Source of the DNA: Candidatus Didemnitutus sp. | GTDB lineage: Bacteria; Verrucomicrobiota; Verrucomicrobiia; Opitutales; Opitutaceae | Direction: 5' to 3' | Assembly (NCBI GenBank): GCA_019634575.1 | Contig: JAHCAY010000005.1 | Span: forward strand, 1 to 64,000 | Length of the DNA stretch: 64,000 nt | Part shown: positions 1-17,143 of the stretch, piece after piece | Position numbering within the stretch: position 1 is the stretch's first letter | Layout of the letters: every line of letters begins with the position of its first letter | The notes under the pieces: generated by a model | Databases searched by the model: none | What the model saw: the letters and a program-made list of their open reading frames with translations, nothing else | Told to the model about the DNA's origin: nothing | Program-made: the position numbers and the translations under genes

Positions 1-14
1 TTGGGCAAAAGACC

Positions 15-524
15 ATGAGCGAAGTGCGCGTCATCTTTCCTGAAGAAAACTGGGTTCTCGTTGATTTCCGTCAGGACGACATGCCCGGCGTGGCGATGGT
101 CAATCGTGGGCTGAAGAAGCTCGAACCGAAGAAGGTGTTTCAGTGGCACTTCTCGATCATGATCCAGCTGTCCGACATCGTTGAGAACGGCATGCCATCG
201 CAGGCGGAACGCGATGTTGTAGATCCGTTCGGTGACATGCTGGATGAGCGCATCAAGGGCGAAGAGAAGAAGCCGAATGCACTGTTTCTTGCGCGGATCA
301 CTTGGAACTCCACTCGAGAGTTGATTTGGCGGGTCTATGATCCGGAGCCGGTCGATGCCTTTTTGAAGGAGATTATCGCCGCGAAGTCACATCCTCGAGA
401 ATTCGACTATCGCATCGACCCAGACCCTGAATGGAAGCTCGCTGAGTGGCATCTTACAGCCGGCAAAGAAGAGGCCCAACCAAGCGGCACAGACAACTCC
501 GGGGCTTCGCCCCTTCGTGTCTGA
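15..524 (+). CDS. DUF695-like protein, integron cassette 1
   Basis: This 169-residue soluble protein has no signal peptide or membrane segment. The C-terminal stretch FDYRIDPDPEWKLAEW (about residues 129-144) resembles the end of DUF695 proteins, a family of unknown function; the assignment is by eye. The ATG lies 14 bases after the presumed cassette junction at position 1. The stop lies inside the following attC site, so the last 15 or so residues (PSGTDNSGASPLRV) are encoded by recombination-site DNA and are probably not functional. The cassette starts with TTGGGC and its own 3' box is GCCCAAC, an exact complement, which marks it as one mobile unit. There is no promoter of its own visible; expression would come from an upstream integron promoter outside the window. 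Confidence 0.7.
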   Translation: MSEVRVIFPEENWVLVDFRQDDMPGVAMVNRGLKKLEPKKVFQWHFSIMIQLSDIVENGMPSQAERDVVDPFGDMLDERIKGEEKKPNALFLARITWNSTRELIWRVYDPEPVDAFLKEIIAAKSHPREFDYRIDPDPEWKLAEWHLTAGKEEAQPSGTDNSGASPLRV

Positions 525-539
525 CCTTTAACGTTCGGC
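474..539 (+). repeat. attC site 1 (integron recombination site)
   Basis: The left box GCCCAAC (474-480) and right box GTTCGGC (533-539) bound a foldable core. CAGACA (490-495) pairs with TGTCTG (518-523), and an inner GGGG/CCCC hairpin lies between. The order (7-base box, 9-base spacer, stem starting CAGACA) is repeated in the other sites of this array. Recombination would be after G533. Confidence 0.82.
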
Positions 540-547
540 AAAGACCA

Positions 548-1036
548 ATGAGCGAGTCAGCTTCCACCGCCGGAAAAGAAGAGCCGACCTTTATGGCGGT
601 CTCGCGCAAGAACCCGGATATGCGGTCTGCGCACGCTAAGGCGGCAGCGACCATCCCTCGCTTCATCGAGCATACGCGCAGCGATGTTGCAGGCTTCCGC
701 AGTGCGAAGCTTCGGTTTCGCGACCCCGATGAGTCGGAGCGGTTGGGAGAGGATCGGTTTCTCTTCCTGTGGCTCACGGGAGTCCGCTATCACGCCGAAG
801 AGAAGATCTTTTCAGGCACGTTCTTTGAGGTCCCGAGTGAGTTTCAGAAGTGGCACAAAGTCGGAGATAGGCTGGGTTTCGATCCGGAAGATATTTTCGA
901 TTGGATGATGCTGACCGAAGACGGCCGATTGTTCGGAGGATATACCCTCCGGGTGAGCCGTGCTTTGTTGCCCGAAGATAAGCGCTCCGATTACGATAAG
1001 CATATCGGTGTCCGCGTTTATGAAGAAGAAGCCTAA
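548..1036 (+). CDS. DUF2314 (YegJ-like) protein, integron cassette 2
   Basis: This is a 162-residue protein starting at the ATG 14 bases after the cassette junction; a longer frame upstream would run back through the attC site and is rejected. The C-terminal half has the look of DUF2314: F...VPSEFQKWHKVGDRLGFDPEDIFDWMM followed by GRLFGGYTLRV, that is a small beta domain with the conserved I-x-DW and GG-x-T-x-R positions. The family is a common small bacterial domain of unknown function. No secretion signal is seen. The TAA stop is part of the GCCTAAC box of the next attC, typical compact cassette packing. The cassette's own ends (TTCGGC / GCCTAAC) match with one mismatch. Confidence 0.75.
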   Translation: MSESASTAGKEEPTFMAVSRKNPDMRSAHAKAAATIPRFIEHTRSDVAGFRSAKLRFRDPDESERLGEDRFLFLWLTGVRYHAEEKIFSGTFFEVPSEFQKWHKVGDRLGFDPEDIFDWMMLTEDGRLFGGYTLRVSRALLPEDKRSDYDKHIGVRVYEEEA

Positions 1037-1097
1037 CCAGGTGCCCGAGCCAACGTCCGGGCTGGCGCCCGGCCGTGGCTCATCGTAGACGATCGGC
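1031..1097 (+). repeat. attC site 2
   Basis: The left box GCCTAAC (1031-1037) and right box GATCGGC (1091-1097) enclose GAGCCA (1047-1052) pairing with TGGCTC (1076-1081), plus an inner CCGGG/CCCGG hairpin. The right box is a variant (GATC rather than GTTN). That variant belongs to cassette 3 and is matched exactly by cassette 3's own 3' box. Confidence 0.8.
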
Positions 1098-1106
1098 AGA
1101 AGAAAG

Positions 1107-1424
1107 ATGAGCTCACCATCTAAAAAATACGCGACGGTCCTGTCCATCATCGCCGCTGCATTGGTGATCGTCGGATTGGTTGGATTGCTTTTTCCCCTCC
1201 GCGACGGTCCTGCATTCTGGCTATTCACCTATCTCCCCTACGCTGCGTCGGCTGCGCTGCTGCTGACGATTCCGGTGTCTTTGATTTGGATGATCTTTGC
1301 CGCCACGAAGAAGAAGTGGGGTGTTGTGGGTCATCTAGCGGTCGCTACGATAGCGCCGCTTTTGGGATTCGCCGGTGCGATTGCCGCCACGTGGCGAATC
1401 GCAAGAGAGCTGTTTCCCGCATGA
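1107..1424 (+). CDS. Small membrane protein, integron cassette 3
   Basis: This 105-residue hydrophobic protein has about three membrane segments: residues 9-31 (ATVLSIIAAALVIVGLVGLLF), 38-62 and 70-95, separated by short charged loops such as KKKW. I do not recognise a family. The ATG lies 15 bases after the cassette junction. Small membrane proteins of unknown role are a frequent cassette cargo. The start of the cassette (ATCGGC at 1092) is exactly complementary to the left box GCCGATC of its own attC, so the unusual A has been preserved at both ends. Confidence 0.72.
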   Translation: MSSPSKKYATVLSIIAAALVIVGLVGLLFPLRDGPAFWLFTYLPYAASAALLLTIPVSLIWMIFAATKKKWGVVGHLAVATIAPLLGFAGAIAATWRIARELFPA

Positions 1425-1431
1425 CGGAAGA

Positions 1432-1501
1432 GCCGATCCAGCCACCACAGACAACGACCGGGAGCTCCGCTCCCGATCGTGTCTGAGTTCAATCGTTGGG
1501 C
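1432..1501 (+). repeat. attC site 3
   Basis: The left box GCCGATC (1432-1438) and right box GTTGGGC (1495-1501) enclose CAGACA (1448-1453) pairing with TGTCTG (1480-1485), with an inner CGGGAG/CTCCCG hairpin. The right box fits the classic GTTRRRY consensus perfectly. Confidence 0.83.
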
Positions 1502-1510
1502 ATAAGAATC

Positions 1511-1747
1511 ATGAAGCGCATGAAGCGACCTGACCCAAATCCCGTGAAGGTTACTGAGCTAGGCGTGACGCCACCCATTCCTGAGAAAGAAAAGCCGCAT
1601 CGGTTCTGGATTGGTGTGATCATTGGCGTTCTTGGTGTTATCGTTGGAGTCGCTGGATGGCTTTTTCCGCGCGCCCCATCCGCTCATAAAGATGGTAGTG
1701 ATGTTTCAGCATCGCAGCCCCGAGCAGAAGCAAAGCCACACCCATGA
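1511..1747 (+). CDS. Single-pass membrane protein, integron cassette 4
   Basis: This 78-residue protein starts with a basic segment (MKRMKRPDPNP). One strong membrane helix follows at about residues 30-52 (FWIGVIIGVLGVIVGVAGWLF), then a polar tail. A TTG start at the cassette junction is possible but would be inside the attC box, so the ATG 15 bases later is preferred; a second in-frame ATG lies 9 bases further. No family is recognised. The cassette starts TTGGGC and its own attC starts GCCCAAC, an exact complement. Confidence 0.65.
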   Translation: MKRMKRPDPNPVKVTELGVTPPIPEKEKPHRFWIGVIIGVLGVIVGVAGWLFPRAPSAHKDGSDVSASQPRAEAKPHP

Positions 1748-1769
1748 GTGTAAGCGGAAGAAAAGAAGA

Positions 1770-1880
1770 GCCCAACAAGCCATCACAGCCAATGCGGGCG
1801 CTCCGTCCTTTTTCTATCATGTTTTCTGAGTTCATAGTTTGTCCTCTTCCGGCCCGCATGGCTGACTGGTGACGTTCGGC
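1770..1880 (+). repeat. attC site 4 (long form)
   Basis: The left box GCCCAAC (1770-1776) and right box GTTCGGC (1874-1880) enclose a 14-base arm at 1786-1799 that pairs with a 13-base arm at 1852-1864. The pairing is perfect except for one extra A in the left arm. A single unpaired base of this kind is what integrases use as an extrahelical strand-choice signal. The site is 111 bases long. Confidence 0.83.
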
Positions 1881-1884
1881 AAAG

Positions 1885-2325
1885 ATGTCCTGGCGTAAGC
1901 AAGAACTAGCTCGTTTCTCGACTTCGCTGTCGTGGCTGCCCGAGGACAAAGCGCAGCGCACGTTTGCCCGCGCGAACGCGACAACGTCACGCGGGCGTTA
2001 TGGGTTGAACGAAAGCGTTTGGGACATTCGTGAGCGCTGGGATGTTGAGAAGATCGGAGCCAGTGCGACCCGCGCGAAGCTTGCGAGCTACGCGCGCGAC
2101 GAAGAGTTTTTTCTGTGCTTCGGTAGCCACGATGTTTGTCGAATCTCGCGCATCGCCTTTCTTGACCATTGGCAGGACATGTTTGCGCCGAGTCGTGATG
2201 ATGTCGTCGTCATGCCGGATTCAGAAGAGTGGTGTCTCTTTTATTGCCACGAAGACGAGTTCGAAGCTGGTCGAAAAAAAGCGCCGAACCAGACGTCAGA
2301 GCCAACGCGCGAGACGGGGCCGTAA
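1885..2325 (+). CDS. Hypothetical protein, integron cassette 5
   Basis: This 146-residue soluble protein is rich in Arg, Asp and aromatic residues, and I do not recognise it. There is no signal peptide. The start ATG is 10 bases after the junction. The last 18 or so residues (KKAPNQTSEPTRETGP) are encoded by attC DNA, as in cassette 1. The compact acidic C-terminal part (MPDSEEWCLFYCHEDEFE) looks like a folded domain of unknown type. The cassette begins TTCGGC and its attC box is GCCGAAC, an exact match, so this is an intact mobile unit. Confidence 0.65.
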   Translation: MSWRKQELARFSTSLSWLPEDKAQRTFARANATTSRGRYGLNESVWDIRERWDVEKIGASATRAKLASYARDEEFFLCFGSHDVCRISRIAFLDHWQDMFAPSRDDVVVMPDSEEWCLFYCHEDEFEAGRKKAPNQTSEPTRETGP

Positions 2326-2416
2326 TTCGTATGTGCCTCCTCCGCTCACCATCACCAGTTGCTCGAAAGAGTTCACCGCACGCTCGCCCGCGCGCGGCTC
2401 ACCTCTAACGTTCGGC
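2283..2416 (+). repeat. attC site 5 (134 bases)
   Basis: The left box GCCGAAC (2283-2289) and right box GTTCGGC (2410-2416) are perfect complements. The stem GAGCCA(A)CGCGCG near 2299-2311 pairs with CGCGCGGCTC just before the right box, with an unpaired A in the left arm. A long variable loop separates the arms. It is the longest site in the array. Confidence 0.8.
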
Positions 2417-2428
2417 GAAGAACACACG

Positions 2429-2692
2429 ATGACTAGACTTCTCAGAGTTGCCCTCGCAGCCGCAACCGTGGGCGCTTGGTGTGTGTTCCTGTATCTTGAT
2501 GCGCTGTGGAGTGAGTGCCTTCAAAGGGCAGCGGAAGACGGAAGGAAAGTTTATGGAGAGATGTATGGTCCCCTGTCTTTCTTCCGTCCCATTTCCATGT
2601 GGGCGGCTGTCACGCTCTCGACTGTTACAGCTGTGTGGCTCGCTTTGAAGAAGGAGCTCAACGAAGCACCCGAGATAACGCGGGCGAAGTGA
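2429..2692 (+). CDS. Small two-helix membrane protein, integron cassette 6
   Basis: This 87-residue protein has two likely membrane helices (about residues 5-23, RVALAAATVGAWCVFLYLD, and 56-74, SMWAAVTLSTVTAVWLALK). A polar loop between them ends in GPLSFF. No family is recognised. The ATG is 18 bases after the junction in attC site 5; the longer in-frame extension upstream overlaps cassette 5 and is rejected. This is the last recognisable cassette, and its C-terminus runs into a half attC site. Its first bases (TTCGGC) do not match its 3' box (GCTCAAC), so this cassette may have been rearranged or have decayed. Confidence 0.65.
   Translation: MTRLLRVALAAATVGAWCVFLYLDALWSECLQRAAEDGRKVYGEMYGPLSFFRPISMWAAVTLSTVTAVWLALKKELNEAPEITRAK
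2656..2690 (+). repeat. Left half of attC site 6, right half missing
   Basis: GCTCAAC (2656-2662), a 9-base spacer and a GAGATAACGCGGG arm reproduce the order and spacing of the left halves of attC sites 1-5. No matching TATCTC arm or GTT box is found before the IS66 element, so the site appears truncated or decayed. Confidence 0.5.
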
Positions 2693-2843
2693 ACATTGCT
2701 CGCAATGGCGGGCCTCCAGACCGGCTCGCCCTTCGCTCCGTGCTGCCGCGCTCCGTGCGCGAGCCTCGCCAAGAGCGATGACGGAACGCGTGTAGCCGAC
2801 GCCCTTTGGGGCGGGATAATTCAGCGATGCGCGAGCTCGCGTG
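2693..2843. other. Non-coding stretch between cassette array and IS66
   Basis: I see no gene here. It holds a short GCCC/GGGC hairpin near 2800-2812. It also holds the palindrome GCGAGCTCGC at 2832-2841, into which the IS inserted. Bases 2800-2826 resemble the IS sub-terminal bases 2860-2887 at about 19 of 27 positions. Confidence 0.6.
2836..2843. repeat. IS66 target-site duplication, left copy
   Basis: GCTCGCGT is directly next to the left inverted repeat and is identical to 5276-5283. Eight bases is the usual duplication length for IS66-family elements. Confidence 0.95.
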
Positions 2844-2866
2844 TAAGCGTCCGGTCGGCGTCCTCC
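2844..2866 (+). repeat. IS66 left terminal inverted repeat
   Basis: A 23-base end starting GTAAGCG, the usual IS66 terminus, imperfectly complementary to 5253-5275. Confidence 0.9.
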
Positions 2867-2901
2867 TAGGCGTGGATGATTGAGCGCGGTAAAGTGGCGG
2901 G

Positions 2902-3278
2902 ATGGGAACGATTGTGGCGGAGGTGATAGATGCGGGAGATCGCGATTCGCGCGGGCGGCGTCGGATGTCGGTGGCGCAGCGCGCCGACTACGTGCGGGCG
3001 TATCGCGAGAGCGGCTTGAACCAGATGGCGTTCGCGAAGCGCGAGGGGCTGCGCTACTCGACGTTTGCGCACTGGGTGCAGAAGGCCGCGAAGGGAGAGC
3101 TGCGCGTGTCGGCAATGTCGTCACCCCGCGAGGGCGCGATGCAGTTTGCGCAGGTGCAGTTGCCGGCACCAGCAGCGCCGGCGCCGCCAGCCTCGAAGTG
3201 CGCTTATCCGACGGCGTGGTCGTGCGCGGCGACGATGTGCAGAAGCTCGCCGTGCTGGTGCGGGCGTTGCGGAGCTGA
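2902..3278 (+). pseudogene. tnpA: IS66 TnpA accessory protein, frameshifted
   Basis: The N-terminal half is in one frame from the ATG at 2902. It has a helix-turn-helix-like region MSVAQRADYVRAYRESGLNQMAFAKREGLRYSTFAHWV, as in IS66 TnpA. The characteristic C-terminus (SLEVRLSDGVVVRGDDVQKLAVLVRALRS) is in the frame one base back and ends at 3278. The switch must fall in the GC-rich repeat tract around 3150-3185, where a one-base deletion or sequencing slip is easy. Read without a switch, the first frame runs on into tnpB and would give a 242-residue TnpA-TnpB fusion with a meaningless linker. A programmed -1 frameshift is possible but no convincing slippery heptamer was seen. Confidence 0.75.
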
Positions 3279-3282
3279 CGCG

Positions 3283-3630
3283 ATGCTCGCCTTCCCTGCG
3301 GCGGTGCGGATCTACGTGGCGGTGCAGCCGGTGGACATGCGCAAGCAGTTTAACGGTCTGTGGAGCGCAGTCGCGGAGCAACTCGGCGAGGATCCGCGCA
3401 GTGGCGCGGTCTTCTGCTTCATCAACCAGTCGCGCACTCGACTGAAGATGCTCTATTGGGACGGCACCGGCGTGTGGGTGTTGGCGAAGCGACTGGAGAA
3501 AGGACGCTTCTCGTGGCCGACGCCGAGTGAAGCGCGCCAGAAACTCTCGCTGGCACCGGAGGCGCTGGCGTTGCTGGTCGGTGGTGTGGAGTTGAAGCAG
3601 GGTTCGCTCAAGGCGTGGTATGAGCGCTGA
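3283..3630 (+). CDS. tnpB: IS66 TnpB accessory protein
   Basis: This is a 115-residue protein of the IS66 Orf2/TnpB family, full length for the family. It shows the expected order: VRIYVAVQPVDMRKQFNGLWSAV, then SGAVFCFINQSRTRLKMLYWDGTGVWVLAKRLEKGRFSWP, then the C-terminal LLVGGVELKQ. The RxRxKxLYWDGTGxWxLxKRLExGxFxWP core is the family signature. The protein is needed for IS66 transposition, but its biochemical role is not known. The ATG lies 4 bases after the tnpA stop, so translation is probably coupled. It is in the same frame as the 5' half of tnpA, which is why that half can read through. Confidence 0.92.
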   Translation: MLAFPAAVRIYVAVQPVDMRKQFNGLWSAVAEQLGEDPRSGAVFCFINQSRTRLKMLYWDGTGVWVLAKRLEKGRFSWPTPSEARQKLSLAPEALALLVGGVELKQGSLKAWYER

Positions 3631-3690
3631 GCGAAAATAATATACCGCGCGCGGAACTTTTGGTGCGCGCTCTGCTCTTATCGCGCCGAC

Positions 3691-5163
3691 GTGAGTGCGG
3701 CCGCGATCAACCCCGAAGAAATCCAGTTCCTGCGCGAGGAGAACGCGGTGTTGCGGGCGCAGATCGAGTGGTTGAAGAAGCAGCTCTTCGGTGCGGGCAA
3801 GAGCGAGAAGCTCGATCGGGCGCAGCTGCTGTTGAAGTTGGCCGAGCTGGAAAAGCTCACGGCCGCGGCGGAGGCGCCGACGCAGACGATCACCTATGAG
3901 CGCGCGAGTGCGCCGCGGGAAAAGCGCCCGCTCGCCGCGGAAACCTTCGCGAAGTTGCCGGTGAAGGAGACGATCGAGATCGTGCCGGAGCCGGTGCGCG
4001 CGGAGCCCGAGCGATACGAGCGCATTGGCGAGGAGCGGACCTTCGAGGTCGATGTGGTGCCGCCGCAGCTCTTCAAACGTGAGATCGTGCGGCCGAAGTT
4101 TAAGCGCCGCGACGACCGCGAGCAGCCCCCGGTGATCGCGCCCGCTCCCGCGCGTCCCGTGCAGGGCGGCTACGCGTCGGCGGGGCTGCTCGCCTGGATC
4201 GCGCTCAGCAAATACGTCGATCACGCACCGCTGTATCGCTTGGAGCAGATGTCGGCGCGCTGGGGCGCGTCGATCTCGCGACAGACGATGGCCGATTGGA
4301 TCGCGATCACCGCGCAGTGGCTGGAGCCGATTTATCGGCGGATGCAAACCGAGTTGCTCGGCGGTGGTTACGTCCAGGCCGACGAGACCCCGGTGCGATG
4401 CAACGACCCGGATGAAAAACGCGGAGGGACAACTCAAGGTTGGCTGTGGGTGATCAGCCGCCCCGGCGGTGATGTCGTCTTCGATTGGCGGCTGTCGCGC
4501 CGACACGGCGAACTCACGTCCCTGCTCGGCGACTACCGCGGACTGCTTCAGTCCGATGCGTATGCTGCGTATCCGTCGTTTGCTCGCGAGCGCGAAGGCG
4601 TCGTGTGGCTGGGTTGCTGGGCGCACGCGCGGCGTTACTGGGTCGAGGCGTTGCCGGAATCGCCGAAGGCGGTGAACTTGATGCTACGCTTGATCGGCGA
4701 ACTTTACCTGCGTGAACGCGAATGGGACGCTGCGAATGTCGGCACGGCGCGGGCCGCGCTGCGCCAGGAGCACTTTGCTCGACCCCTGCGTTGGCTGCGG
4801 CGACTCGCGATCGGCCTGCGCACGCGCCATCTGCCGCGCTCGCTCATCGGCAAGGCCTGCACGTATCTGCTCGATAACTGGGAACCGCTCACCGCGCATC
4901 TGCGCCACAGCGAGAGTCGCCTCGACAATAACCTCGTCGAAAACGCCATCCGCCCCTCGGCCATCGGAAAGAAGAACTGGCTCTTCATCGGCCATCCCGA
5001 CGCCGGTCAGCGCTCCGCCATCATCTACTCGATCGTCGTCTCCTGTCAGCGCCACGGAAAGGATCCGCTCGCTTACCTCCGCGACGTGCTCACGCGCCTG
5101 CCGCAGATGACCAACCAAGACGATATCGCAGCTCTCACTCCCGCTCGTTGGTCTGCCTCGTAA
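3691..5163 (+). CDS. tnpC: IS66 transposase TnpC (DDE type)
   Basis: This 490-residue transposase starts at a GTG. An N-terminal leucine-rich coiled coil (residues 9-60, EEIQFLREENAVLRAQIEWLKKQLFG...) is followed by the catalytic core. The acidic triad is D231 (VQADETPVRC), D289 (LLQSDAYAAYPSF) and E417 (LDNNLVENAIRPSAIGKKNWLFIG). These are the standard IS66 motifs, so the enzyme itself looks intact. One oddity is that the usual four zinc-binding cysteines between the coiled coil and the core are absent; the equivalent segment (about 98-150) has no Cys. That suggests a divergent IS66 subgroup. Confidence 0.93.
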   Translation: MSAAAINPEEIQFLREENAVLRAQIEWLKKQLFGAGKSEKLDRAQLLLKLAELEKLTAAAEAPTQTITYERASAPREKRPLAAETFAKLPVKETIEIVPEPVRAEPERYERIGEERTFEVDVVPPQLFKREIVRPKFKRRDDREQPPVIAPAPARPVQGGYASAGLLAWIALSKYVDHAPLYRLEQMSARWGASISRQTMADWIAITAQWLEPIYRRMQTELLGGGYVQADETPVRCNDPDEKRGGTTQGWLWVISRPGGDVVFDWRLSRRHGELTSLLGDYRGLLQSDAYAAYPSFAREREGVVWLGCWAHARRYWVEALPESPKAVNLMLRLIGELYLREREWDAANVGTARAALRQEHFARPLRWLRRLAIGLRTRHLPRSLIGKACTYLLDNWEPLTAHLRHSESRLDNNLVENAIRPSAIGKKNWLFIGHPDAGQRSAIIYSIVVSCQRHGKDPLAYLRDVLTRLPQMTNQDDIAALTPARWSAS

Positions 5164-5165
5164 TG

Positions 5166-5244
5166 GTGGCTACTACGAGAACGACTCGTAGGCAGTAGTC
5201 ATCATCCTCAACAGAGTCTCTGTCAGATTAGTGGCTACTACGAG
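5166..5244. repeat. Direct repeats and hairpin at IS66 right end
   Basis: GTGGCTACTACGAG occurs at 5166-5179 and again at 5231-5244. The first copy also folds with the following ACTCGTAGGCAGTAGT. The stretch lies after the tnpC stop and before the right inverted repeat. It may be a terminator or a sub-terminal protein-binding region. Confidence 0.55.
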
Positions 5245-5252
5245 TCGTCAAT

Positions 5253-5275
5253 GAGGACGCCCGTCGGACGCATAC
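5253..5275 (-). repeat. IS66 right terminal inverted repeat
   Basis: A 23-base end, read inward GTATGCGTCCGA..., pairing with 2844-2866 at about 19 of 23 positions. Confidence 0.9.
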
Positions 5276-5283
5276 GCTCGCGT
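5276..5283. repeat. IS66 target-site duplication, right copy
   Basis: GCTCGCGT, identical to 2836-2843. Confidence 0.95.
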
Positions 5284-5302
5284 CGCTGACCGCACCGTCC
5301 GA

Positions 5303-7507
5303 TCACACGTCCACGATGGCGATGCCGTGGGCTGCGAGCTTCAGGGTGCGCGTGGCGCGCGCGTTGGCGAGGGCCACGGTCGTCGACTGCGGTTCACCGG
5401 CGTTGTTGATCACGACGAGCTTCTTCACCGCCGGGAAGTAGCTGGCCTCGGTCTTCACGTTGTCCGCGTGCCAGACGCTCCACGCGGCGTCCTGCGACGC
5501 GGCCCAGTAGAGCGCGCGGTGCAGCAGTCGCGTGTTCTCAAAGTTGAACTTGAACCCGCTCAGGTAAACCGCGCGGCCGCGCCCGAAGGCGTGCGTGGCG
5601 AGACGCGGCGTGCCGTCGCGCTCGGCGAGCACGGTCGTGTCGCCGTTGAAGACGTAGATGCCGTCCACGTCCTTGCCGAGGTCGAGCGGCGTGGTGATGT
5701 CCGCCGTGATGAAGTGCGCAGCGACTGGCGCGGCGGGCGGAGCGAACTTGAACTTGCCGTTGGCGACGCGGTCGCCGGTGTCGCGGTCGAGGCCGAAGAC
5801 GCGCGCGAGCTTGAAGCACTGGCCGGGACGCGGGCGCGCCGACGGCTCGCCGATGCCGATGACGCCGCCGCCCTTTTGCGCGAACTCCGTGAGGATCGTC
5901 TCGACGCGCGGGTCGTCCCAATAATGCCCGCCGCTCCATGCCGAGCCGGCGCGGCCGCAGTTGATCACGGCTTTCACGCCGCGCGGCACGCCGTTTTTCA
6001 CCAAGTCGTCGAAGCTGATGAACTGCGCGTCGAGCGCGAGGCCGGCGAGGGATTCGAGCACGTCGTAGAGCGCGACGCCCGGCGTGAAGTGCCCCGAGCA
6101 GGTCCACGCGCGCAGGTCGCCCCACGCGGTGAGCACGGCGACCTTGAACGGTGCGACCCACGGGCGGCCGCCGGCGTGGAAGGATTTCAGGAGGCGGAAC
6201 TCGCGCGCGAGTCCCTCGATGTAGTCCTGAAAATCCGGGAACGGCTCGACGAGCGAGAGGTAGCCGCCGAGGCCGATGCGATCGATGGGCGCGCGCACGA
6301 GACCGCGGCGCGCATCGATCCAGAAATTCTTCGCGTCGAGCGTGGGGTTGCCGCCGGCCTTGAAGGTCGGTTCGCCCTTCAAGCCCGTGGGGAACAGATA
6401 CGGGTGCAGACGGAGCTCGCGGGTCTTCGCGCCGGTGGAGTGCGCACAGAGGCGCACCTCGAACGCGTTGAACACGCACTTGATCAGGCCGTCGAAGCCG
6501 AACTCCTTGAAACGCGGGCTGCTCGGCTCCACGCCAACCCAGTGGTCGTCGTAGAACACGTAGGCGAGTTTCTCGTAGCGGTGCACGAGATCGATGCACT
6601 TGCGGCCAAACTCGATCACGAAGTCGTGCACGAAATCCATGTAGTCGCGGTAGCGGCGCGACGGGGCGTTGTGCGTCGAGTTGTAGAGGCCGCCGTTGAC
6701 GAAATCCTCCGACGTGAGCCGGTAGCCGAATTTCTTCTCGAAGAGCGTGAGCGCGCGCGGGCTGACGGTCATGGCGTAGTCGCCCCAATCGGAATAGATG
6801 TCCCGGAGCTTCGCGTGATCCGCGCCCCAGAACCACGAGAAGTTGTAGAACATCGACGTGAAGCGCACGACCTTGGTGTCCGCGTGGTCGCGCAGCCATT
6901 TCTCGAGAAACTCGAGCAACACCTGCTGCGTCTCGGGCTGCATCGGATCGACGGCGGCGAGATGCTCGCGGTCACCCCAGTTGTTCGTGAGGTGATTATA
7001 CATCGAGATCTCCTCCCAAGTGCGGAAGGCGAGGAAGTTCACCGTGTATTGGTGGCCGGGCATGGTGCCCTCGATGGTGACGGTGCCTTTCTTCGCGTTG
7101 AAAGACCACTTGGTCTTCGCGACTTCCTTGCCGGTCGTGCGGTCGAAGACCTGCCACCAGCGCTTCGGGCTGTCGCCGAAGTTCACCACGAACTGCTCGG
7201 TGTAGTAACCCGCCAGCAGCGTGATCGTCGTGCGCGCCTTCGCGGCGACGACGGGGAAGCTCATGAGGAAATTCTGCTGGAGCTTGTCGCGATGCACGCG
7301 CGCCCAGGGCTGCACCGAGCGCACGAGGCAGACGGTCGAGTAGATCGCGTAGCCGGATTGCACGATCTCGGGCGAGAGCTGCGTGCCGTCGGAGTCGCGG
7401 ATGGTGTCGGCGCCCCATTTCTTGGCGAGGCGCAGCGTGAGCTGCTCGTAACCGGCTTCGCCGGGCAGCGTGAAATCACCGTGGGAGAGATCGGGAGGAT
7501 TGGTCAT
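5303..7507 (-). CDS. GH112 beta-galactoside phosphorylase
   Basis: This 734-residue cytoplasmic enzyme has no signal peptide. It matches the GH112 family along its length: the N-terminal G-DFTLPGEAGYEQLTLRLAKKWGADTIRDSDGT, then SMYNHLTNNWGDREH, VVRFTSMFYNFSWFW and FVNGGLYNSTHNAP, as in lacto-N-biose phosphorylase. GH112 enzymes split a terminal beta-galactoside with phosphate, giving galactose 1-phosphate. Known substrates are galactosyl-beta-1,3-N-acetylhexosamine or galactosyl-beta-1,4-L-rhamnose. With rhamnogalacturonan genes nearby, the rhamnose type (EC 2.4.1.247) is the likelier guess, but the sequence alone does not decide. It is last in a leftward set after GH2 and GH42, which would release or trim the galactosides. 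The 126-bp gap to GH42 holds a long hairpin repeat. Confidence 0.88.
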   Translation of the reverse strand: MTNPPDLSHGDFTLPGEAGYEQLTLRLAKKWGADTIRDSDGTQLSPEIVQSGYAIYSTVCLVRSVQPWARVHRDKLQQNFLMSFPVVAAKARTTITLLAGYYTEQFVVNFGDSPKRWWQVFDRTTGKEVAKTKWSFNAKKGTVTIEGTMPGHQYTVNFLAFRTWEEISMYNHLTNNWGDREHLAAVDPMQPETQQVLLEFLEKWLRDHADTKVVRFTSMFYNFSWFWGADHAKLRDIYSDWGDYAMTVSPRALTLFEKKFGYRLTSEDFVNGGLYNSTHNAPSRRYRDYMDFVHDFVIEFGRKCIDLVHRYEKLAYVFYDDHWVGVEPSSPRFKEFGFDGLIKCVFNAFEVRLCAHSTGAKTRELRLHPYLFPTGLKGEPTFKAGGNPTLDAKNFWIDARRGLVRAPIDRIGLGGYLSLVEPFPDFQDYIEGLAREFRLLKSFHAGGRPWVAPFKVAVLTAWGDLRAWTCSGHFTPGVALYDVLESLAGLALDAQFISFDDLVKNGVPRGVKAVINCGRAGSAWSGGHYWDDPRVETILTEFAQKGGGVIGIGEPSARPRPGQCFKLARVFGLDRDTGDRVANGKFKFAPPAAPVAAHFITADITTPLDLGKDVDGIYVFNGDTTVLAERDGTPRLATHAFGRGRAVYLSGFKFNFENTRLLHRALYWAASQDAAWSVWHADNVKTEASYFPAVKKLVVINNAGEPQSTTVALANARATRTLKLAAHGIAIVDV

Positions 7508-15254: not shown

Positions 15255-17143
15255 GCCTCGCGCGCCGCCTGCTGCTGAGTCTCGCGTGCCTCGCCGGCTT
15301 CGTGCCCGCGCCGGCGGCCAGCACCGCAACAAACGACACGGCTGCGCCTGCGCCCTTGCCCGCGCACCCGCGCCTGCTCGCGCGCGAGGACGCCTGGCAA
15401 ACGCTCAGGGCGCGTATCGCCGTCGAACCGGCGCTCGCGGACTTCAACGACGCGCTCATCGCGGAGGCGCGCGCCCGCGCCGCGTTGCCCACCGTGCAGC
15501 GCGTGATGATCGGACGCCGGCTGCTGCACGTCTCGCGCGAGCTGTTGCACCGCGTGCTGCTCTTCAGCTACGCCGCACGCGTGACCGGAGAAGACGCCTT
15601 CGTGCGCCGCGCCGAAAGCGAGATGCTGGCGGCGGCGCGCTTCCCTGACTGGAACCCGGAGCATTTCCTCGACGTGGGCGAAGCCACCGCCGCACTCGCC
15701 CTCGGCTACGATTGGTTGCACGCGCGTCTGGCGCCTGCGGCGCGCGATGAGATCCGCCGCGCGATCGTCGAGAAAGGGCTGCGGCCCGGACTCGATCCGC
15801 GGGACCGCCGCAATTCGTGGCAGCGGGCCGAGAACAACTGGAACCAGGTTTGCTTCGGCGGCCTCACGCTCGGCGCGCTCGCTGTCGCCGACGAGGCGCC
15901 GGACGAGGCACGACGCCTACTCGATCTCGCTCGCGCCGGCATCGTGCACGGCCTCAAGCCTTATGGGCCTGACGGCGTTTATCCCGAGGGGCCGTCCTAC
16001 TGGGCTTACGGCACGAGTTATCAGGTGTTGATGCTCGCCGCGCTCGAATCCGCGCTCGGCACCGACTGGGGATTGAACGCGAGTCCGGGTTTTCTGGCCA
16101 GCGCAGCCGACTACCTGCAGCTCACGGGACCCAGCGGACATTCCTTCAACTTCTCCGACGGCGGCGAACGGCTGGACTTCGAGCCCGCGGTGTTCTGGTT
16201 CGCGCGCCGCACCGGCGACACAGGCCTGCTACACTTCGAAATGCAACGGTTGGCCGGTAAGCAGGGCCTCGCCGCCGCCGCGCGCGGCAATCGTTTTGCT
16301 CCCCTCGCCGCGCTCTGGTGGCCGGCGCTTCCCATCGCCGCACCGCACCTGCCGCTCGACTGGTCCGGGGACGGTCCGAATCCGGTGGTCGTTTTCCGCG
16401 AATCGTGGACCGCGCCGGGAGCCGCCTACCTCGCGGCCAAGGGCGGCTCCGCCGCGCTCAACCACGCACACATGGATGCGGGCTCATTCATCTACGAGGT
16501 CGACAGCGTGCGCTGGGCCATCGACCTCGGCATGCAGGATTACGAGTCGCTCGAGTCGAAGAAGATCGACCTCTGGAACCGCGCGCAAAACTCGCCGCGC
16601 TGGAGCGTCTACCGCCTCGCCAACGTCAGCCACAACACGCTCACGCTCGGCGGCGCACCGCATCGGGTCGCCGGCCGCGCGACCATCGAGCGCTTCGTCT
16701 CGGACGGCGCGCGTCGGGTCGCTGTGCTCGATCTCAGCCCGGTCTTCGCCGGGCAGGCGCAACGTGCGCGGCGCGGTTTCGCGCTGCAAGCCGACCGCGG
16801 TTTCATCGTGCGCGACGAAATCTCCGGACTCGCTCCCGCCAAGTCCGTCCGCTGGCAAATCGTCACCCGCGCCCAAGTCGAATTGCGCGGCGACACGGCG
16901 GTGCTGCGGCAAAACGGCCGCGCGCTCACGCTGCGCCTGCTCGACGCACCGGCTGGCGCGAAATTCGCCGCCGAACCCGCCCAGCCACCCGCCGACGGTT
17001 TCAATGCCCGCAATCCCGGCGTGACGCTCGTCCACCTCACATTCACGCCGCTCGGCTCGCCCGACGCTTCGGTCACCGTGCAGTTTTCGCCGGGCCCGCC
17101 CGCCGGGAATTCGCCGGCTGTCCGTCCGCTCGCGGACTGGTGA
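15251..17143 (+). CDS. Heparinase II/III-like polysaccharide lyase, secreted
   Basis: This 630-residue protein has a signal peptide (MSLARRLLLSLACLAGFVPAPAAS). The ATG overlaps the GH3 stop by four bases. An alpha/alpha toroid region (PLPAHPRLLAREDAWQTLRARI to about 340, with NNWNQVCFGG and YPEGPSYWAYGTSYQ) is followed by the heparinase II/III beta domain (ALNHAHMDAGSFIYEVDSVRWAIDLGMQDY). The Asn, Tyr and His positions used by heparinase II-type lyases are visible. The fold occurs in PL families acting on heparin, alginate and oligo-alginate (PL12, PL15, PL17, PL21). In this operon with alpha-glucuronidase and arabinofuranosidase a uronate-containing plant glycan is a more natural substrate, but that is inference. 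Confidence 0.85.
   Translation: MSLARRLLLSLACLAGFVPAPAASTATNDTAAPAPLPAHPRLLAREDAWQTLRARIAVEPALADFNDALIAEARARAALPTVQRVMIGRRLLHVSRELLHRVLLFSYAARVTGEDAFVRRAESEMLAAARFPDWNPEHFLDVGEATAALALGYDWLHARLAPAARDEIRRAIVEKGLRPGLDPRDRRNSWQRAENNWNQVCFGGLTLGALAVADEAPDEARRLLDLARAGIVHGLKPYGPDGVYPEGPSYWAYGTSYQVLMLAALESALGTDWGLNASPGFLASAADYLQLTGPSGHSFNFSDGGERLDFEPAVFWFARRTGDTGLLHFEMQRLAGKQGLAAAARGNRFAPLAALWWPALPIAAPHLPLDWSGDGPNPVVVFRESWTAPGAAYLAAKGGSAALNHAHMDAGSFIYEVDSVRWAIDLGMQDYESLESKKIDLWNRAQNSPRWSVYRLANVSHNTLTLGGAPHRVAGRATIERFVSDGARRVAVLDLSPVFAGQAQRARRGFALQADRGFIVRDEISGLAPAKSVRWQIVTRAQVELRGDTAVLRQNGRALTLRLLDAPAGAKFAAEPAQPPADGFNARNPGVTLVHLTFTPLGSPDASVTVQFSPGPPAGNSPAVRPLADW

Follow-up and report, generated by a model that had tools for sequence, protein, structure and literature searches.

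We analyzed the first 64,000 nucleotides of a contig of a Candidatus Didemnitutus sp. genome (Verrucomicrobiota, Opitutaceae; GenBank assembly GCA_019634575.1, contig JAHCAY010000005.1), hereafter called the window (C5:1-64000, in a genome of 5.25 Mb and seven contigs). Its left end holds an integron gene-cassette array, with six open reading frames (ORFs) on one strand within bases 1 to 2692, most of them followed by an attC recombination site (Table 1). The left edge of the window, C5 base 1, is thus also the left end of the contig, which opens exactly at a cassette start (TTGGGC). The GC content of the array is 56%, versus 66% in the window to the right of base 5300. Integrons are on record from Verrucomicrobiota among other phyla (PMC8618304). 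The initial annotation, made from the letters alone, had proposed such an array here, and its proposal is borne out by the attC sites, an attI site, and an intact integron integrase (IntI) described below. It had also proposed that a full site trails each of the six genes, which held for genes 1 to 5, while gene 6 is followed by half a site.

Table 1. Features of the cassette arrays and their surroundings. Positions without a contig label are those of the window.
Feature	Position	Strand	Details
intI	C1:492-1841		Intact, 449-aa IntI; full-length open frame; TIGR02249
Main attI	C1:318-510	-	Between intI and cassettes
attI copy	C4:455-644	-	86% identity to the attI region
attI copy	C1:97801-97904 (L215:7802-7905)	-	89% identity to the attI region
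Cassette 1	1-533	+	ORF 15-524, DUF695 protein (Pfam DUF695, 1e-13)
attC 1	474-539	+	R'' GCCCAAC at 474, R' GTTCGGC at 533; R2 59.2 bits, E 5.9e-13
Cassette 2	534-1091	+	ORF 548-1036, DUF2314 protein (Pfam DUF2314, 1.1e-13)
attC 2	1031-1097	+	R'' GCCTAAC, R' GATCGGC; R2 63 bits, E 6e-14
Cassette 3	1092-1495	+	ORF 1107-1424, putative small membrane protein (membrane nature read from sequence)
attC 3	1432-1501	+	R'' GCCGATC, R' GTTGGGC; R2 64.6 bits, E 2.3e-14
Cassette 4	1496-1874	+	ORF 1511-1747, 78 aa; no Pfam family matched
attC 4, long loop	1770-1880	+	R2 66.6 bits, E 6.9e-15
Cassette 5	1875-2410	+	ORF 1885-2325; no Pfam family above cut-off
attC 5, long loop	2283-2416	+	R2 69.1 bits, E 1.5e-15
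Cassette 6, last, truncated	2411-2692	+	ORF 2429-2692; begins TTCGGC after R' at 2410
Half attC of cassette 6 (R''/L'' side only)	about 2656-2690	+	GCTCAAC...ACGCGGGCG; read from sequence, under model threshold
84-bp repeat	2700-2783	+	Sole other copy in the genome (73%) at C2:1619-1712
IS66-family element	2838-5280	+	Inverted ends 2838-2872 and 5246-5280, 74% complementary
IS66 TnpB	ORF 2902-3630	+	TnpB_IS66 3e-33
IS66 transposase	3691-5163	+	NF033517 337 bits, cut-off 180
Right flank gene, lacto-N-biose phosphorylase-like (GH112)	5303-7507	-	Pfam 3.7e-189
Second cassette array	C2:1-1500 (L007)		attC at 412-483, 839-978, and 1298-1370

attC sites and the closed-circle signature

An early pattern-based attC finder proved too strict (it recovered two of the eight complete sites at the left ends of C5 and C2, plus one doubtful match on C6), and covariance models were used instead. 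A first model (R1), trained on five sites, three of the window and two on C2, matched 145 sites across 19 loci from relatives. From those 145 sites, all of other genomes and none of this one, we built a second model (R2), which matched all five complete window sites at 59 to 69 bits (E values of 1e-12 to 1e-15). Their R'' boxes begin exactly where the initial annotation had placed them, at 474, 1031, 1432, 1770, and 2283, all on the plus strand, and the lengths from R'' to R' are 66, 67, 70, 111, and 134 nt. R2 found no further attC in the remainder of the window, and its matches in the whole genome were confined to the left ends of C5 (five), C2 (three), and C1 (one, partial), in a scan that left aside the 2.6-kb contig C7, scored only 150 first-pass candidates, and may have missed weak sites elsewhere. 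The tandem sites show the R''/L''/L'/R' plan with an extrahelical base, according to both models and to base-pair counts. Base pairs covaried (92.6% of cells paired versus 73.4% in shuffled data, and 435 double-change cells versus 142) in an alignment (A2) that was fitted to the model and is thus biased towards the structure. In all 14 loci of relatives that hold both, the attC sites lie on the strand opposite to intI. Single-strand folding alone did not discriminate attC sites.

The R'' box of cassettes 1, 3, 4, and 5 had been described as the exact complement of the first six bases of the same cassette, and we found six of six matching positions in each; in cassette 2 there were five of six. 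Among 117 cassettes from relatives, R'' matched the start of its own cassette at 5.64 of six positions on average, versus 4.63 for the start of the next cassette. When starts were permuted within arrays (2000 shuffles), the mean was 4.67 (sd, 0.07) and the maximum 4.88. The reading of these cassettes as inserted closed circles, part of the initial proposal, holds quantitatively, and its signature is present in the window and in the relatives' cassettes.

One integron, by synteny, across an assembly gap

The integrase gene had been predicted to lie to the left of the window. We found it across an assembly gap, at the left end of C1, pointing away from the cassettes and with attI in between, its link to C5 being provided by synteny. 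Cassettes begin at the crossover of this attI, a site that the suggested check had listed as support. The proposal was to be abandoned if the genome held no intI and the five positions no attC match, and both were present. The encoded protein matched TIGR02249 with 371.7 bits (cut-off, 265) over residues 141 to 449 and contains the IntI-specific insert, which places this tyrosine recombinase in the IntI subfamily; its best relative of solved structure was IntI4 (2a3v; E value of 8.8e-101, with profile). The main attI is near-identical to that of a congener (G003) up to the crossover, at the end of ...GAATAACACTG, and the cassettes diverge beyond it. Likewise, the junction between attI and cassette, ...AGTGAGGTTTTTCACTGAATCTGAATAACACTG followed by ATCGGC, is common to both genomes and leads into different cassettes. 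C1 terminates within the attC of its first cassette.

A single contig of congener G001 (C16) carries, in order, the flank found at the left end of C1, a remnant of intI limited to the N-terminal half (47%), 18 attC sites, and the right flank of the window. In a second congener (G007, contig C13), both flanks are present, intI is broken, and there are no attC sites. Since two congeners hold both flanks on one contig, the left ends of C1 and C5 belong to opposite sides of a single integron with a fixed chromosomal position, in which intI is divergent from a same-strand array, a linkage that comes in this genome from synteny only. Thus, judging from sequence, the left 2.7 kb of the window is almost certainly the distal end of a sedentary chromosomal integron whose platform lies at the left end of C1, the assembly being broken inside the array. 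The platform would comprise the outward-pointing intI, attI, and the first cassette. IntI would act on circular cassettes by folding the bottom strand of their attC and would insert them at attI, older cassettes would accumulate distally, and the last one would have been sealed off next to insertion sequence (IS) elements. We infer that IntI is active today.

Two observations weigh against this picture, namely, that the junction between C1 and C5 is not assembled and that intI is broken in both G001 and G007, so that the system decays within the genus. It is very improbable that the window array is instead a free-standing cluster of attC sites lacking integron integrases (CALIN) unrelated to the intI on C1. 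The window and the whole of C5 contain no intI, and this genome has other array pieces away from intI, as such a cluster would lead one to expect; against it, the two flanks share a contig in two congeners with intI remnants between them, and by this synteny the window array does have a neighboring integrase across the gap. That the sites are chance similarities or other repeats among small genes, such as repetitive extragenic palindromic elements or terminators, can practically be dismissed, since the independent covariance model, its specificity in the whole genome, the permutation test, and the covariation all contradict it, even though two of the five window sites folded no better than shuffles (unremarkable z-scores) and an Rfam search of the window gave no match at gathering thresholds.

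The left end of C2 was also considered as the distal flank of the same integron and was rejected, synteny pairing C1 with C5 and C4 with C2. In another congener (G008 C84:16361 and C116:1; L218 and L219), two contigs stop no more than a few bases from the attI crossover, and C2 and C5 likewise begin at cassette boundaries; assemblies may break at these points because of repeats or heterogeneity of the arrays.

With sedentary chromosomal integrons such as the Vibrio superintegron and the Xanthomonas ilvD integron, the one described here shares an IntI, an attI, homogeneous attC sites, a fixed chromosomal position, same-strand cassettes of unknown function, and intI decay in sister species (PMC8618304, PMC12444791). 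Unlike them, it has an IntI with a conserved extra N-terminal domain, and three attI sites accompany its one intI. The window array is, in itself, an ordinary sedentary chromosomal integron, and the interest lies in these two features.

The extra region occupies IntI residues 1 to 83 (C1:492-740), with the conserved pattern SFPxW...FLxHCK...PAT...ALRWFF followed by a proline-rich linker. Canonical IntI lacks this region, and outside the family it is rare; in an alignment of 34 distinct IntI proteins from relatives, about 30 had it. Compared with 80 named IntI relatives of other taxa, an N-terminal profile gave one strong match (a Syntrophus metagenome-assembled genome, E value of 2e-15) and four weak ones. 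A profile comparison between the extension and the core-binding domain of IntI itself aligned 68 columns (pairwise E value of 8e-4, probability of 25%), and the extension may be a duplicated, second core-binding domain. An AlphaFold model of L161, a distant relative, shows a helical N-terminal region, with a predicted local distance difference test (pLDDT) score of about 45 to 70. This extended IntI is a ready subject for studying the role of the extra domain in recombination.

attI copies without an integrase gene

Integrase-less attC clusters outnumber complete integrons. A search of the genome with the 193-bp attI region revealed two further attI copies (Table 1), and no IntI match was found in the stretches examined around them. 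The copy on C4 retains roughly the opening 17 bp of intI. A cassette start (TTGGGC) comes next, and the contig stops at GGCCC, where the R'' of that cassette begins. In G007, the left flank of C4, an attI-like site, and the left flank of C2 are contiguous, which places the second cassette array between the left ends of C4 and C2. With three attC sites on C2 and no IntI near the left end of C4, this array is a CALIN, the link between C4 and C2 coming from synteny with G007. It resembles known CALINs in lacking intI but is headed by a recognizable attI. The part on C2 adjoins a core ABC-transporter operon, and the contig begins at a cassette boundary.

The third site, C1:97801, holds one cassette. 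An IS110-like remnant interrupts the attC of this cassette, whose R'' is the exact complement of its own start. Up to the crossover, 6.2 kb of this locus align with G001 C16:365053 at 91% identity; beyond it, the two species have different cassettes of about 600 and 540 bp. After R'', the same IS110-like sequence follows in both, and then the shared flank again. As neither species has intI at this locus, the simplest reading is an exchange in trans after the species parted, homologous import of the locus being one of the possible alternative explanations. IS110-like remnants stand directly after R'' at L215 (around 7190), L217 (around 7690), and L092 (around 11815), as expected of an attC-targeting IS. 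In these arrays the remnant follows the R'' of the terminal cassette, and it may be related to the IS1111-attC group of IS110 elements, which insert at a fixed place in attC; the remnants here are decayed, and the last cassette of the window is followed by an IS66 element.

We also examined 13 intI-less array heads chosen only by their attC clusters. The attI core motif was present in 5 of them, preceding the first attC by the length of one cassette, compared with about 0.1 that chance would give in 13 heads. It occurred 11 times in the 419 kb of these loci (both strands), 9 times at array heads, and was absent from 8 of the 17 heads examined. In G063, two orphan attI sites can be aligned for about 165 bp with the attI that adjoins intI in that genome (E value of 1e-36). 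There, on C1 (L229:5832-5995 and 16563-16729), a 470-bp intI-less segment with attI is duplicated at 98% identity, each copy heading its own attC run. Four more genomes (G012, G015, G039, and G082) have an attI, at least one cassette, and attC without intI nearby; these are not independent cases, since they were found by attI similarity. Altogether, intI-less arrays headed by attI recur in at least six genera.

Platforms with attI and without intI thus exist, and from sequence comparison we infer their use in trans, by which the single IntI of this genome would also serve the copies at C4:455-644 and C1:97801-97904. On balance, we lean slightly towards a general reading in which one integrase serves several landing sites: attI copies of about 70 to 190 bp would spread without intI to fixed loci, each gathering its own array in trans, and this would account for many integrase-less attC clusters in these genera. 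The competing account, to which we give less credence and which is still a serious contender, takes orphan attI sites as dead relics left after intI loss, with the cassettes inserted beforehand and nothing happening in trans. It would fit the intI start kept at the C4 copy, the two to four intI genes of several relatives, the decay of intI in G001 and G007, and the complete genomes G015 and G082, which have attI-headed cassettes yet no IntI match at 1e-50. It fits poorly with the different cassettes between near-identical flanks at C1:97801, where neither species has intI, and with the absence of any intI remnant at 11 of 11 attI-like loci (tblastn, E < 1e-3). Moreover, the attI homology reaches the crossover side, not just the intI side, in every match, and in G063 it is the intI-less segment itself that was duplicated. 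If orphan attI sites do work in trans, a single integrase would maintain several arrays, and many CALINs would be functioning platforms and not fossils.

The definition of a CALIN refers to attC only. For integrons outside class 1, attI sites are poorly described, and IntegronFinder does not detect them (PMC9024848); since standard tools ignore them, solitary attI sites would escape notice. In Xanthomonas, CALINs occupy conserved loci, which has been contrasted with scattered insertion at attG (PMC12444791). One attI-headed CALIN has been reported, in the Shewanella M13 prophage M16-3 (PMC9892861), so the bare idea of an attI-headed array without intI has precedent. That is a single case in a cryptic prophage, whereas the platforms described here are chromosomal, recurrent across genera, and syntenic between species, and at one of them the cassette content differs between species. 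Beyond the Shewanella case, our literature search, which covered few subscription journals, turned up no account of orphan attI sites that recur and show cassette turnover between species.

Cassette contents and right flank

No defense function was assigned by PADLOC to any of 10 cassette proteins, and the ORF of cassette 3 had no family match above the cut-off in family profile searches. Cassettes elsewhere in the genome encode DUF6869 (on C2) and a Tdi1-type immunity-like domain (left end of C4), and putative membrane proteins of small size are also among the cassette products. Among 150 genomes of the family, a homologue of the DUF695 cassette protein was found in one other genome only, of a different genus (64% identity), also within an attC array.

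Beyond the half site of cassette 6 come IS remnants, the 84-bp repeat, and an element that belongs to the IS66 family by its DDE_Tnp_IS66 transposase, TnpB, and inverted ends. Past it lies the GH112 gene, which has the same position in two congeners. The initial annotation had set the array next to a plant-glycan locus; the position stands, with this conserved neighbor beyond the IS66 element, and the link between the two is only positional. Both copies of the 84-bp repeat stand just past the last cassette of an array.

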